From: Argopecten irradians
Lineage: Eukaryota; Mollusca; Bivalvia; Pectinida; Pectinidae
DNA length: 64,000 nt
Assembly (NCBI RefSeq): GCF_041381155.1
Contig: NC_091136.1
Coordinates: forward strand, 46,552,284-46,616,283
Reading direction: 5' to 3'
Made by a program: the position numbers and the translations under genes. Shown one piece after another: positions 544-60,329 of the stretch. The notes beneath the pieces are model-generated. The model was not told where the DNA came from. It saw only the letters and a list, made by a program, of their open reading frames with translations, and did not search any database. How positions within the stretch are numbered: the stretch's first letter is position 1; each line of letters begins with the position of its first letter.

Positions 544-3500
544 TTACACTACCACCGGTTTCCAGTCTGCAGGTTCAAGGGAATGCTGAGGAGTAAGTAA
601 TCGCTCTGCCGGCTTCTCCTCGGGTTTATCTGCCTCCTTGTGGTCGGCATCATTGGTATTCTGTTCTTGGTCAATTTTCTGGTTCGGTTCGAGATCCCTC
701 GGGCGTGGTGTATTTTCCACAACATTATCCTTGAGTGCGTCCCCGACTGTTGGTCGCTGTAAAGATTCGTCTTTTTGTCTAGGTGTGTCCGTAACGAACG
801 TGCCTTCACGCGCGGTCACTTGACCCATTTTGCTCTCTCTTTCTTTCCGTTCCATTATCTCCTTATCCGATGCTTCTTTCTCGGGAGGTACTTCTTTGAC
901 TACTGTGTAACTAAACTTTGCCTCCTCATTCCGCAGATTCTTTATACTGTACGTATTACCTAAAATGTATTTTTTGGATAGAACAATGCTAAATAAATGC
1001 TTCGTTAAAACGGAATAAGTTCCTTTAAAACTAGTTTCATTGCAAGAGTAAAATGTTTATGATTTCCTATTTTCGTCTTTGAAATTTTAATCACTTTATT
1101 GAGTGAAGTCAGTCGTGATAAAGCGTCAATTTGATAATAATGATATTCATAGCTAACAATGCAAGTAATAAAATGTTGAATTGAGATAATACAAAAAACA
1201 ATTTGATGTTATTCACGAGATAATATAAACCAGTATGTCAATCATTTGCAGATTAAAATATATTTGAATGTTTTGTTATCTACCTTATCAAGAGTATGCA
1301 TATTGCCAGTTAAATGTTGATTTACCTCTAGGGACAAAGAAGAAATCCCCGGATACAATAACGGAAGTGCTTTCGTGGATAGTCAGTGATACCCGTCCGT
1401 ACCACAACTGGAAAATCTTTATAAAAGGAAAATAGGTGATGTTTTTACTATACTCTTTGTGATATCGATAATTAATTATTTTTATACTTATACTACTGGT
1501 AGATGAGCATACTCCACCAGGTAAACCTGAGTTAGTGTGGATATGATTAGTATACTAAGGTGTCGTTTCATATTAAGGAGTTATCAGCCCCTGATGAGTC
1601 TTTGACTGTTGTAGCATAAGTATGTATGCGGACATTTCGCACACAAAACGGTATTTATTTCCTTAAACATGTTATAACACTCAATAACAATCCAAAAGAG
1701 CATAAACTGAAGTCAAATACAGAAAAGTAACACGTAACTGGCATTTCCTTTGTGATGCTTGCAGGGATTGATGTTTTAACCGGAAGATGCCTTTGCTGTA
1801 AGGGTGATTACAAGGTCATTCAGATTTACAGGCTGAGTTAAGTGTACTTACCAGGTCACCCCTAGTAACGAGTTGTGTAGGTTTCATTTCCATAGGTCTT
1901 AGTAGTAAAACGCCGCTCCCAAATCTTTTCTGGATTAAGCACCGTGACAATACATAGGGATCCGTAGGTTTGGGCTCAGCCCCTGACGGTCCCACGAATA
2001 CAGAGTCTTCCCTTCCTGCTATGCATTCTGTAAGATGATAAAATATGTTAAGGATGATGCAGTGAATACCAGATTGTTTTCTATAACAAAGTTTACCATG
2101 TGTAAGTTAAATGAACGGTAACCATCTTGACAGATAAGAACGCGATTTTATCATATTTTGTCCAGAACTTAAGTAAGATTCGAAACCATAGATTCGGGGC
2201 TCCCCAATTAGCCAGCTATGTTGTTATTATTTGTGTATCTAGTCTTTCATTATTTCCATTTATATAATTGAAATATTTAATAGTATTGTGAAAACTAAAC
2301 ATTTTTCGGTGAAAAGTAAAATCATTATATTGATGTAAACAAATCTTTGGTTATTGATCTTCCCATTAGTACATTTCTATCTCTTACATTATTTATCCTT
2401 TTTTAATTATGGAATTCTTCAATTTACAAAATGTAGTTCCTGTGATTACTAGTTTTGTTTGATTTTATTATGCCTAAAATCCAACCCAGGTCATTTAAGG
2501 ATGGTGTGCCGTACGTACAATGTAGTGAGTGTATGAATGGCCGTACGATATTCAGTTTGTCTCTTTGTCATAGTGGAACTCATGCCTTTATATAGTGCTA
2601 TCGCCCTAAATCATGTCGCCACAGACACCGAACAAAACCTCCATCAAGTCACATTACAAGTACAGAGGGCAAACCAGTTGCCCCACTACCTTTATGCTGA
2701 GCCCTAAGCAGGAGCAGAAACTACCAGTTTTATATTGTATTAGTACATCACATGATAATTACTAGGAATGCGATTGGATAACAGCCATGGTCTATTTTTT
2801 GATAGTTCCCTGTCCTTCTTGACTACGGGAGACTTTACCTGACCACGGGAATTATACCAAAATATATTCCCCCGGGAATGAGCACGCGAACAAATACGTC
2901 ATAATGAACAGTTCTCCTATAGCATGTCTGGTGAGGTAGAGTGCCCTCGTCTTCGACTCGTGGACTATACCTTGCCAGACAACACCAGACAACATAATAT
3001 AGGAGAACAGTTCCCCCGGAAAGGGTCATAATAGAATATGTGTATCGGTCAGGGAACATAATCCAAAGTCTTACCGCATATGGATGAACGTTCAACTCGA
3101 AGCAAGCAAGAAGGCGGTGTCAAGGGAAGAAGAACTTAATTCAGAAAGAAGAGAAAATATGATATATACGATATTATACAATGCAGGTACTATTCTAACT
3201 TCAGGATCATCTGAGCACTAAGACCATTAAAGAACTCTTAAATGACAAAACTGCTGTGTGTTGAGGCAAGTGTTTAAGGTGCAAATATCTTGCATCCTTT
3301 ATACAATCAGCCATGTTTAAATGAATCTTAAAAATATACCTAGTCAAGAAACCAGAATCATTTTGCTTAGCCTAGAACTGTTTTAAGTAGAGACCATTCC
3401 AAAAATCGCAAGTCTTTAGCCAAGGACAGTCTTAAATTTGGTCAAAATCGTAAGTCTTAAGCCTAGAGAATAGTCCTTAAATTTGGTCAAAATCGTAAGT

Positions 3501-6339
3501 CTTAATAATATACAGTCTTAAATTTTGTCAAAATCGTAAGTCTTCAGCTTAAAACAGTCTTAATTTGGTCAAAACTTACCGATTTCAAAAATAGTTTATC
3601 TGTTTTGATACAAACCCTTAACTTAGAGATTGCTCATTGTTCCTGGAACATGTTATGTTGTGCCATCGTGAAGAATGGATAATGAAACTTTTACTGTTGA
3701 AAATCTCTTTGCGTTACGCGATGATTTAACAGAAAATAATCAAAAATCGTTATGAAGCATACATTGTTTCTAAAACAGCCCAGCCACAAATTGACAGACA
3801 CATTGTCTTCCTTAAAAACCGAGATAGTTTTATCAGTGTTCCGGTAGAACTAACATTGTTTCCAATAACACACATTCAAATACTTTTAAAAATGAAATTA
3901 CCGTAATACAATTGGACTGTTTTAATTTTACGCTGCAAGATAAAATCAAAGCGATGTTTGGCTCCGTAATAAAAGATCAATAAGTGGAGGTGTCACTAAC
4001 AACGTGACATTGGATCCATCCTATTGTATTCTATAGCCACTGAAACTAATATTTGATTCTCTAATAGGTTTCTATTTAAACTGTTAAGCGAAAATGTCAC
4101 ACAATTTCAAATAAAAAACATTTACTAATATTAGCATATTTTTATATATCTGGCATAGTTGACATATACTAAGAACACTATCTAGAAACAGGCATCTGTT
4201 ACGATAAGTCAAATAGGAAACACATTAATATAGGACTGTTTACGTGGTGGTAAATCGGTGTATTTATTGTGACTACAACGGACCAATGCTGTCTAACTTC
4301 TATACACTTATTGTTCTACAACACATTAGTTGTAGATGTCCATGTGGTGATTGCTCCTCTAAGTATATTGATTATGTTCGAGACCATCAATAGACGAGTA
4401 ATTGGCTCGGTTTGGTAACAATTGCCTCCCCACATTCTTTTGTCAAAGTTCATTGCATTATGGCATCACCTTTGACAATATTAGGTCCAAAGTTTTCAAT
4501 TTCTATTATTTCGACTGGTGTTCATATGCCAATAATTTATCATAAAAGGTTTTACCACGATTGACTTTTTCGTAACAAGTCCTTGCTTTTTATTCAATTA
4601 ATCATCCTAGTAGAAAAAGCAGGAGGATATAATGTGCAATAGAAAGTTCTAATGAAAAATATATATATATGTATATATATTTATCATTATTATCCCCCCC
4701 CCCCCCCCCTAATTTCTTACTTGTAGTAACGGTTTCTTTTGAATCCGGATCTTTAACGAGGACCTGGTTCCTGTCGGTCGGGTCGTAAGACATGGGAACT
4801 TCATTCGGGGTGGTTATATCCAATGGCGGGTCCTCGCCCACAGACTCCAAATTGTCCGCCTCGTTCTGGGCTTCATTCTCGGCGATACTCATAGCCACCA
4901 GATGTTCCGAGGGAAAGAGAGTGTCGACAAAGACGCCATTCTCCTTAATTATAGAGGAAGGAGATTGTAGGTTTATCTTGCTGCTGCTTCGCTTTTTTTC
5001 TGAATTTGGGACTTTGTACGCTGTGTCTTGGTAGGGCGAATCGTAATTCTGTTCGGACGCCGCAATACTTATCGCAGCGCTAGCTCGTCTACCTGTTGTT
5101 TCAAACAAATGGATAATATTTGAATGATGAACGTTATCAAAATCATTCTCCAAAATAGTCTTACAGACTCAAAAACTTTCAATCATCATTGCTTGAGTGA
5201 CAGGAGTACTACCAAGTAAAATATAAATAACATGGTTAAACTGATAAATGACTGCTTGATACTACCTAAACATTTGAACTTGACACCATTACCACTTTAT
5301 GACAGACGTAGCATACTGAAAGACAAATCAACAACATCAGGTTTTGAATCGTCGAGTTGTGCGTGTTGATAAAGGCTTTTTAGGTTCTTCTGGATTGGTC
5401 GATATAATTGAGGACGCCTACTCGCCTGAAACCCAATGTTGACATCTTTCTCTATATTATAGTTATTGTGCTTTTAACTAGGTGCCCTGGTTGAATATTT
5501 TAAGGTAGATATGGTTTGGGTATGATACTGGCTTTAAATGTTTAGTATGACTGTGTAAGAAATCAATCATAATCTGTCGTGTGTTACCATAATATCGATC
5601 TGAATATATATATATATTCTACTCTTTACAGTTATATATGGGGATCAATAATTCCTGTTAACTAAATAATCGACTTAATTAATAAGAATTGATAACATTC
5701 CACCTTAAACACTATAGCTTTTGTCCGATTGATATTAATGTTCACGAGTAATAGCTCGATCTTATGTGAACAGAAAATGTTACAACGCACTTATCAAGAT
5801 GTAATTAACTTTAGAGTAACGTCATTGTAAGTTCCAGTAATGTAGCTCAAAAGACCTTTAGACAGATAATGGTGTCGTCTTTAGGCCTAAAGGTATAGTA
5901 GGCCGGATTCGTTTATTTGTTCTATGACATTGTTGGTCTGTTAAATAAATCTGCATATCATCATTATAATACTTTGTCATCATCGCGATTCATAGCGTAT
6001 TAAAGTCTACAGTTGTGCGTGTAGAAATGTGGTGAAGGGACTGTAAAACCCTGTAAACGCCATATAACAATGTTGTTGTTAGGTCAGCCATTTTGTTTTA
6101 TTGATTATAAACAATAATTATCAATAGCTGCCTCAGTCCGGTCATTTTCCTCGATAAATTTATAATCAATCTGTTCAACGCTAAATCCAAAAAAGACATT
6201 TCTAAAAGTTCTTATTGTCTGAAAGTTTGAGATAGTTTAAATGTAAGATAATTACAATACCGTTATACTGTGGTCTACTTACGTTTTTCTTTCCGTTTTG
6301 GTGTTCGTTTCTTTTTGTCTTCTGTTGAGTCTTTCATGG
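544..6339 (-). CDS. CENP-C/Mif2-type cupin protein, five coding exons
   Basis: Exons read right to left: about 6339-6285 (start), 5092-4721, 2027-1852, 1407-1326, 959-544 (stop). All junctions are GT-AG and the phases join (1,1,0,1) to give 366 residues. The ATG follows an in-frame TGA with no earlier ATG between. Residues 1-22 are strongly basic (KKKRTPKRKEKRRR), a probable nuclear signal. Residues about 23-140 are Ser/Glu-rich and end near VLVKDPDSKE, which resembles the stretch before the CENP-C cupin. Residues about 165-250 form the cupin: LTIHES, SGDFFFVPRGN and YSIKNLRNEE match the C-terminal homodimerisation fold of CENP-C as I remember it. In CENP-C this fold dimerises at the inner kinetochore. 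Two features are odd: residues 252-366 form a long charged tail, whereas CENP-C normally ends with the cupin, and I find no CENP-C motif (R-x-S-x-R-x-x-x-x-P-x-x-[YF]-W). It may be a CENP-C paralogue rather than CENP-C itself. The exon model is firm; the function is inferred from the fold. Confidence 0.8.
2465..2730 (-). repeat. SINE copy (3' part) in intron 2 of the CENP-C-like gene
   Basis: Read on the minus strand, it begins with GGTAGTTTCTGCTCCTGC, continues through GGTGTCTGTGGCGACATG and GATAGCACTATATAAAGGC, and ends with CCTTAAATGACCTGGG. The same blocks recur at 43809-43960 (5' half) and flanking the 22-bp array at 57866-58960 (3' half), so this is an interspersed family. The order of blocks and the tRNA-like head in the 43.8-kb copy fit a bivalve tRNA-derived SINE that I recognise from memory. 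The copy lies antisense to the + strand and in the same orientation as the host gene. Confidence 0.6.
3388..3580. repeat. Short tandem array, about 43-bp unit, 4-5 copies
   Basis: The block TTTGGTCAAAATCGTAAGTC recurs at roughly 42-45 bp spacing, separated by variable spacers. It lies in intron 2 of the CENP-C-like gene. The copies differ by several substitutions and small indels, so the array is not recent. No coding role is suggested. Confidence 0.65.
4655..4709. repeat. AT dinucleotide tract followed by poly-C run
   Basis: A short (AT)n/(TATATG) tract is followed by about 16 consecutive C. It sits just inside the intron, 7 bp past the donor of exon 2 (4721) of the CENP-C-like gene. On the transcript strand this is a G-run right after the donor, which could affect splicing. 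Poly-C length is prone to assembly error. Confidence 0.7.
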
Positions 6340-57865: not shown

Positions 57866-58880
57866 TGATTCGGGGTGTGCTGTTAGGTGTCGTTGGTCGT
57901 GCTGTTAGGTGTCGTTGGTCGTGCTGTTAGATGTCGTTGGTCGTGCTGTTAGGTGTCGTTGGTCGTGCTGTTAGGTGTCGTTGGTCGTGCTGTTAGGTGT
58001 CGTTGGTCGTGCTGTTAGGTGTCGTTGGTCGTGCTGTTAGGTGTCGTTGGTCGTGCTGTTAGGTGTCGTTGGTCGTGCTGTTAGGTGTCGTTGGTCGTGC
58101 TGTTAGGTGTCGTTGGTCGTGCTGTTAGATGTCGTTGGTCGTGCTGTTAGTGTCGTTGGTCGTGCTGTTAGGTGTCGTTGGTCGTGCTGTTAGTGTCGTG
58201 GTCGTGCTGTTAGGTGTCGTTGGTCGTGCTGTTAGGTGTCGTTGGTCGTGCTGTTAGGTGTCGTTGGTCGTGCTGTTAGGTGTCGTTGGTCGTGCTGTTA
58301 GGTGTCGTTGGTCGTGCTGTTAGGTGTCGTTGGTCGTGCTGTTAGGTGTCGTTGGTCGTGCTGTTAGGTGTCGTTGGTCGTGCTGTTAGGTGTCGTTGGT
58401 CGTGCTGTTAGGTGTCGTTGGTCGTGCTGTTAGGTGTCGTTGGTCGTGCTGTTAGGTGTCGTTGGTCGTGCTGTTAGGTGTCGTTGGTCGTGCTGTTAGG
58501 TGTCGTTGGTCGTGCTGTTAGGTGTCGTTGGTCGTGCTGTTAGGTGTGTTGGTCGTGCGTGGTTAGGTGTCGTTGGTCGTGCTGTTAGGTGTCGTTGGTC
58601 GTGCTGTTAGTGTCGTTGGTCGTGCTGTTAGGTGTCGTTGGTCGTGCTGTTAGGTGTCGTTGGTCGTGCTGTTAGGTGTCGTTGGTCGTGCTGTTAGTGT
58701 CGTTGGTCGTGCTGTTAGGTGTCGTTGGTCGTGCTGTTAGGTGTCGTTGGTCGTGCTGTTAGGTGTCGTTGGTCGTGCTGTTAGGTGTCGTTGGTCGTGC
58801 TGTTAGGTGTCGTTGGTCGTGCTGTTAGGTGTCGTTGGTCGTGCTGTTAGGTGTCGTTGGTCGTGCTGTTAGGTGTCATT
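57866..58880 (+). repeat. 22-bp minisatellite, about 45 copies
   Basis: Unit GTGCTGTTAGGTGTCGTTGG(TC), nearly homogeneous, with a few one-base deletions (TTAGTGTCG) and rare T/A or G/A variants. Its first and last units merge into SINE sequence: the right edge reads GGTGTCATTGGCAGTATGCT, then AGATAGCATTATAAAACG, matching the 3' half of the SINE at 2465-2730. The true copy number may differ in the genome because such arrays assemble poorly. Confidence 0.95.
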
Positions 58881-58960
58881 GGCAGTATGCTTCAGTAAGA
58901 TAGCATTATAAAACGAGAAGAGTTTCATAATTACAGAGAAACAACACAAAGATGATAATA
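58881..58960 (+). repeat. SINE 3' remnant adjoining the 22-bp array
   Basis: CAGTATGCTTCAGTAAGATA then AGCATTATAAAACGAGAAG aligns with the minus-strand SINE at 2465-2730 (ACATGATTTAGGGCGATAG, CACTATATAAAGGC). Confidence 0.6.
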
Positions 58961-60329
58961 AAACCTTTTGAAAATATATCTACTTACTGTCTACATCCCC
59001 ACGTGTAGCTTTTTATCCAGGAGCATTAGCAGAAATACCATGATAACGAAAACAAATTCAAAAATAACACTGTAGGTTGTAGTTCGAATTATTCTGACGT
59101 TCTATCATCTTCATATCGGCCTTCCCCGATTTCGTTGTATTTAGACCACTACAGTACAATGTTTGTAATGGAGGGGGAGTAACTCCAGCGAGTTACTTAA
59201 AAGGTAAGTGTCACATTCTAAAAATAAACCTTGCAGAACCTGTTATATCGCTTAAAAGAAAGAAAACAAAAATCGAACCCTACACAAAAGATGGTCAAAT
59301 ACCAAGTCACCAAACCAGTATTATATAGTGTCCTCACTGTGGACGGTTAGGCATTGACTGAAATCACTGGGGCGTGGAGATTTTACAACATTCACTGGCC
59401 AATTCGGCCAATGTGAAGACTTATTTACTCTACTGTGTGTAGGCGAGCTTTTCCAAACAGGTATGTATATACGAGGAATTATTATTTCTACAATGACAGG
59501 AGTAAGTGGGGTGGTAGGGAACGCACATGTGTCTAGAGTAGCGGTGTACACGGGGTGTGTCCATGTCGGAGAGTTCAAGACGGGTGTAACAACTCTATAG
59601 ACAGGTGAGCTGTTATTGTTTATCGTCTAATCAATAGTGCATTTTGTTCTTTTTGTAGTGTTAATTACATAATAAACCGGATTATATGGTCGGAATAAAC
59701 ACGCGATATGATTGATCAGAGATAGCGGTCATCGTACGTGTTACACACGTGTAACCATATTCCTATAAATGTATCAGAAGTCGACGCTAATGTCGTGAGC
59801 TGATGAATGTAGTCGATGAATGACGTCCATCGGCTAACGGTCTGGATTATTTGGAGTACATGACACACTGCACGGTTGTGTACCTGGACACATCCACAAT
59901 TGGATTGCCAACACGAGAGCATATTGTGACGATTTATATTATCCATATTTGTTGAGAATGGTGGGTGACAATATGGGGTTCAGTTTTCAGTCTGGACATT
60001 ATCAAAAATAGACAAGCTCTGGAAAAACCACGCCACGAAACTTTTACCATCAACCTAGGAACAATAGTATATTATACACAAACCTAGAACTTACTATTAA
60101 GGATTTTAAGAAATCATATTTACCATTACTGTAAATATTACTATATATATAATCTCTACAAGCCTTTTTTGGCTTTTCAATGATGTTGGGCTGATGAGAA
60201 ACCTATGAGAAAAGTTTCAGCCAATAAAGAGACAATATGTAATGTAAACTGTAGTTATGTGAAGTAGTGAATCAAATTACACAATTCCATGATGCAATTC
60301 AACTAAGAACAGAAGGGCTTAAGATGTAC
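58961..60329. other. Intergenic, nothing recognised
   Basis: AT-rich sequence between the 22-bp array and the next SINE. The longest open frames lack splice context or recognisable motifs. Confidence 0.45.

Follow-up and report, generated by a model that had tools for sequence, protein, structure and literature searches.

A predicted CENP-C paralogue of Argopecten irradians with a CENP-C-type cupin, a charged tail and no CENP-C motif found

The DNA analysed here—the window, a stretch of 64,000 nucleotides from Argopecten irradians (C3:46552284-46616283, in a genome of 846 Mb and 1508 contigs)—contains a predicted gene derived from an old duplication, introns included, of the 3' end of CENP-C, the part that encodes the pre-cupin segment and the cupin. 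The features read from the DNA itself are a CENP-C-type cupin, a gene structure in common with another CENP-C gene on C6, an intact frame under constraint, and a CENP-C motif that was looked for and not found. By a small measure, we favour a functional partial duplicate: the motif-less oligomerisation end of CENP-C, which would modify the clustering of centromeric chromatin or the docking of a partner.

Five exons on the minus strand (6337-544; Table 1) fuse in frame to encode 369 residues, and all four introns have GT/AG borders. The original prediction had the same five-exon in-frame join, which stands, and a length of 366 residues, which does not. The shorter version takes an exon-4 acceptor 9 bases further on, directly after ...ATTTTCCAG, and loses the residues IFQ—these are also present in the C6 paralogue, where the same acceptor ambiguity exists, and human CENP-C has hydrophobic residues at this site, which makes the 369-residue product the better model. 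VPRGN and YSIKNLRNEE, both named in that prediction, are in the protein, and the charged stretch of about 115 residues that it placed after the cupin measures 116, with 28 D/E and 19 K/R. When the bases of the tail are shuffled, its frame stays open in 18 of 5000 cases, and exon 2 in 14 of 5000; we consider it highly probable that this is a real protein-coding gene. Exon 1 as the putative gene start is the least certain part of the model, placed solely by splice signals and phase; the phase at its end is that of the C6 exon preceding the pre-cupin exon.

Table 1. Features of the predicted gene, with positions counted from the first letter of the window
Feature	Position	Strand	Description
Exon 1	6283..6337	-	55 nt; MKDSTEDKKKRTPKRKEK(R); basic, NLS-like by eye; putative start codon; donor gtaagt; end phase 1
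Exon 2	4721..5092	-	variable linker; 3' end is the pre-cupin segment QVLVKDPDSKETV
Exon 3	1852..2027	-	cupin start; 176 nt
Exon 4	1326..1416	-	mid-cupin (IFQLWYGRVSLTI...FVPRG); 91 nt
Exon 5	544..959	-	cupin end (NTYSIKNLRNEEAKFSYTVVK), 116-aa charged tail, stop codon included
CENP-C_C (cupin) match	910..1947	-	residues 170-248, spans exons 3-5; profile 4-82 of 85
C-terminal charged tail	547..894	-	residues 254-369

Elsewhere in the window, a row of exons for tetraspan-like membrane proteins runs along the plus strand (18569-62138), several of them with proline/tyrosine-rich ends; this is perhaps an array of a claudin/PMP22-like family, and one of four pieces run against Pfam has a weak Claudin_2 match, under the cut-off (E 0.01). 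A 22-bp tandem array of some 46 copies with 97% matches (57877-58882) lies in or beside 58001-60000, where GC is raised and the GC skew strong.

Residues 170-248 match Pfam PF11699, CENP-C_C, with 59.9 bits (cut-off 29; E 2.9e-16), the top family in the profile check that had been proposed with the original prediction, and the general Cupin_2 family stays under its cut-off for this protein (15.4 vs 27.2). When the PDB was searched with the window cupin, CENP-C chains led (7x85, 7xhn, 7by0), followed by Cnp3 and Mif2, the best at 1.1e-13; we take 7xhn to be human CENP-C and 7x85 to be chicken CENP-C. The 7xhn match reaches into the pre-cupin region, where VKDPDSKE aligns with human CENP-C from residue 827, and exon 2, compared with 60 kb of C6, best matches the CENP-C pre-cupin exon (E 0.002); a pre-cupin segment is present ahead of the cupin in the window protein. 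The cupin family, a KNLRNEE core as in human and the pre-cupin VKDP segment are thus its likenesses to metazoan CENP-C (human CENPC, chicken). As far as the sequence alone can tell, the dimerisation fold is kept; a single-sequence AlphaFold2 prediction of the window protein has a mean pLDDT of 43.4, too poor for use, and nine strands, compatible with a cupin.

A protein search of the genome with the window protein gave six matches at E <= 10, divided between the window gene and C6:3518307-3521982, and a search in the other direction, from the C6 cupin, gave six matches at E <= 10 in the same two loci; a more diverged third copy could escape both searches. The PF11699 profile returned zero matches over the whole genome at E <= 0.001 despite the two genes there, a result that we disregard because introns cut up the profile. 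The C6 locus is a separate, motif-bearing CENP-C (the original prediction had suggested a search of the genome for a full-length one) and was read from motif to stop: a motif exon of 111 nt, a GGFVIAGII exon of 105 nt, a pre-cupin exon of 129 nt, two cupin exons (176 and 91 nt), and a final exon with its stop 8 residues past the shared ...KE. The product of this part, which spans just 6.2 kb, is colinear with human CENP-C 731-942 (E 2.1e-28). Upstream, the same strand carries long reading frames that are charged and repetitive; one frame upstream of the motif exon, at C6:3529085-3530221 (minus strand), encodes units of DSKQKTVRGSKKSNTEQSVTDNEKE and of PVGECHIT repeated in tandem, and is possibly part of the N-terminal region of the C6 CENP-C.

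The window gene is almost certainly a CENP-C paralogue, as had been proposed, and sequence, exon lengths and intron phases agree on this. Exons 3 and 4 have lengths identical to those of their C6 counterparts, and four exon-end phases are equal in the two genes (1,1,0,1); therefore the duplication took place at the DNA level, not via a spliced transcript. The alignment of the full exon 2 with C6 is significant (0 of 500 shuffles score as high), its pre-cupin end driving at least part of the score. Over 105 gapless codons the two cupins are identical at 66 of 105 residues, with pN 0.25 and a pS of 0.89 that is saturated, beyond correction, and neither a stop nor a frameshift. A frame and splice sites intact at such an age indicate long purifying selection. 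In 77 aligned columns the window and C6 cupins share 49 identities, the human cupin matching them at 33 (window) and 32 (C6) and the chicken cupin at 29 (window) and 34 (C6); the two are closer to each other than to human or chicken, and the duplication therefore probably took place after the lineage had parted from vertebrates. This dating uses the identities alone, a five-cupin tree being small, with one long branch and no inner branch at the support mark.

A decaying pseudogene or an assembly artefact would suit a partial copy known from sequence alone; however, the frame and splice borders are intact at saturated synonymous divergence, and we regard this as extremely improbable. An allele or haplotig is opposed by the separate large contigs that hold the two genes (C3, 71 Mb; C6, 48 Mb) and by their 37% protein divergence.

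The vertebrate CENP-C motif is given as RxxRxxxxPLxYWxGERxxY (PMC4830207, excerpt). Five motif patterns, run over six frames of the window, gave no match to the CENP-C motif on its minus strand, and their three rows of weak partial matches fall in two places, on the plus strand only; tblastn of the C6 motif exon against the window found no motif (best E 2.6), and against the window protein this exon does no better than shuffles, 724 of 1000 of which reach its score. The original claim that there is no CENP-C motif thus held for the window protein and the 57 kb upstream, by patterns and tblastn, in searches that an intron-split motif, or one beyond 57 kb, would escape. At E <= 10 the sole match of the C6 motif exon in the whole genome is itself; a consensus of the motif, searched for in the rest of the genome, gave no match, a result that carries no information. 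A supposed remnant of the post-motif segment in exon 2 (ENGVFVDTLFPSE vs SGGFVIAGIIPSQ) was dropped: the chosen sub-segment has p about 0.01-0.02, and the test with the N-terminal part of exon 2 fails, with 235 of 2000 shuffles and 5 of 177 window ORF pieces reaching the score.

The window gene differs from CENP-C in this missing motif and, in the present model, which starts at the 55-nt exon 1, in having none of the long N-terminal part; motif-less exons may lie further upstream. In CENP-C the long N-terminal part binds the Mis12 complex. It might be asked whether this is a second full-length CENP-C, comparable to fly Cenp-C1/Cenp-C2, whose upstream motif exons were overlooked—exon 1 is a putative start, no stop interrupts its frame upstream as far as 6397, and a motif exon can be short, as the one on C6 is. 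We judge this very unlikely: although an intron-split motif would go unseen, neither patterns nor tblastn turned up anything motif-like in the 57 kb upstream, the C6 gene needs just its 6.2 kb from motif to stop, and the C6 motif exon has no match in the genome at E <= 10 but itself.

A further difference from the C6 CENP-C, with its stop soon after KE, is the tail that the window cupin carries. In searches of the genome exon 2 matched only itself, as did the tail at E <= 10; the exon-2 search overlooked the C6 pre-cupin exon that the 60-kb search found, and weak relatives of linker or tail may escape in the same way. A linker and tail unmatched in the genome, together with the lack of a nucleosome motif and the large divergence from C6, could be expected of a paralogue with a job outside the centromere, where its barrel would have lost contact with CENP-C and would be a dimeric scaffold in another part of the nucleus. 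Such a job is unlikely, however, for a protein that has kept the pre-cupin VKDP segment in common with human CENP-C, and the FVPRGNTYS and KNLR.EEAK blocks in common with the C6 cupin.

For the reading that we favour, a partial duplicate acting at centromeres, we propose a free oligomerisation module made up of pre-cupin and cupin, to which the gene adds its own charged tail and a basic N-terminus. The protein would be nuclear, and its cupin would pair with itself, with full CENP-C, or with both, forming homodimers or heterodimers; it would reach the centromere mainly through pairing with CENP-C, and would there limit or modify the CENP-C-driven clustering of centromeric chromatin. Alternatively, a partner may be docked via the tail or the cupin pocket, and the role may perhaps be confined to a single tissue, the germ line for instance. 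In vertebrate CENP-C, cupin and pre-cupin are needed for homodimerisation and multimerisation (PMC11266386, excerpt), and human CENP-C 760-943 self-associates (PMC2688085, excerpt). Cupin dimer modes vary among species (PMC7110144, excerpt); because of this and of the 37% protein divergence heterodimerisation is not assured, and we consider the case for a hetero-oligomer mechanism evenly balanced.

Human CENP-C is also credited with CENP-A and H3 interaction through its cupin end (PMC2688085, excerpt), so the window protein might reach chromatin without CENP-C. For this reason the original interpretation—a CENP-C paralogue that kept the dimerisation fold and lost, or never had, nucleosome binding—is just partly supported: the paralogy and the absence of a motif within 57 kb stand, the kept fold is a prediction from sequence, and the interaction credited to the human cupin end runs contrary to an absence of nucleosome binding. 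The fly cupin dimer, for its part, binds the CENP-A chaperone CAL1 directly (PMC7110144, excerpt), and a motif-less cupin could hold such a partner away from chromatin. The window protein might then be a dominant-negative competitor that blocks CENP-C dimers or occupies a Mis18/CAL1-like partner, a brake on CENP-A loading; this overlaps our best explanation, its binding partner is putative, and we think it decidedly unlikely.

The C6 motif has changes of its own. Compared with the human motif (RRTKRTRLKPLEYWRGERIDY), the C6 motif (RRSRRTRVRTLEGHKNERVNY) has GH in place of YW, the arginines before the pair being kept, barring K/R swaps, and three tryptophan-containing motif patterns gave zero matches on the minus strand of 60 kb of C6. 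The YW pair of the CENP-C motif meets the CENP-A tail. A CENP-A candidate, in three exon pieces at C4:28267402-28277624 (minus strand), carries W at the CENP-A position and ends in ...LARKIRGGQ, without a hydrophobic tail. The loss of YW from the C6 motif and the apparent loss of the tail from the CENP-A candidate would fit each other, a fit from which a single genome cannot show co-evolution. The R, Y and W of the motif matter for nucleosome binding (PMC4830207, excerpt). A second diverged H3, at C5:24614372 (minus strand), starts with an N-terminus like that of H3, ends in RRIRGDW and has KISKFNYMFKVAALAALQ as its loop 1, which is unusual. We also considered a two-gene CENP-C system, in which the C6 gene, with its YW->GH motif, and a tail-less CENP-A would make the nucleosome contact, and the cupin module from the window would cluster centromeric chromatin in trans. 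This is quite unlikely; if true, CENP-A recognition and CENP-C self-assembly, elsewhere the work of one protein, would be separable and rewirable.

CENP-C duplicates are already known. As with the Drosophila pair Cenp-C1/Cenp-C2 (Teixeira et al. 2018, cited in PMC12724597, excerpt), an animal has here kept two CENP-C genes, the second of them diverged; unlike that pair, which is described as keeping key motifs (PMC12724597, excerpt), the window gene has no CENP-C motif that we could find. Duplicates, some of them truncated, also occur in maize (Cenpc copies) and in Sorghum (a truncated Cenpc); however, the maize product has an altered C-terminal end owing to an unspliced intron, and the Sorghum gene is a pseudogene with a 5' deletion (PMC549713, excerpt), whereas the window gene is intact, its cupin end included. 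Putative fish CENP-C proteins resemble it in having a cupin that is clearly of CENP-C type and a motif that is hard to recognise—the shark motif site is without the tryptophans—but these are candidates for CENP-C itself (PMC4830207, excerpt), and the window gene coexists with a motif-bearing CENP-C.

As far as the available parts of these sources go, then, the known duplicates keep key motifs or are fragments, altered products or pseudogenes, and a constrained gene for the oligomerisation end only differs from them. The open-licence literature searched, in the parts available, names no cupin-only CENP-C paralogue; one may still be in print. The window gene would be a natural separation-of-function CENP-C: cupin-driven clustering, apart from motif-based nucleosome binding, could be asked about in a living animal, a question that otherwise requires engineered mutants.
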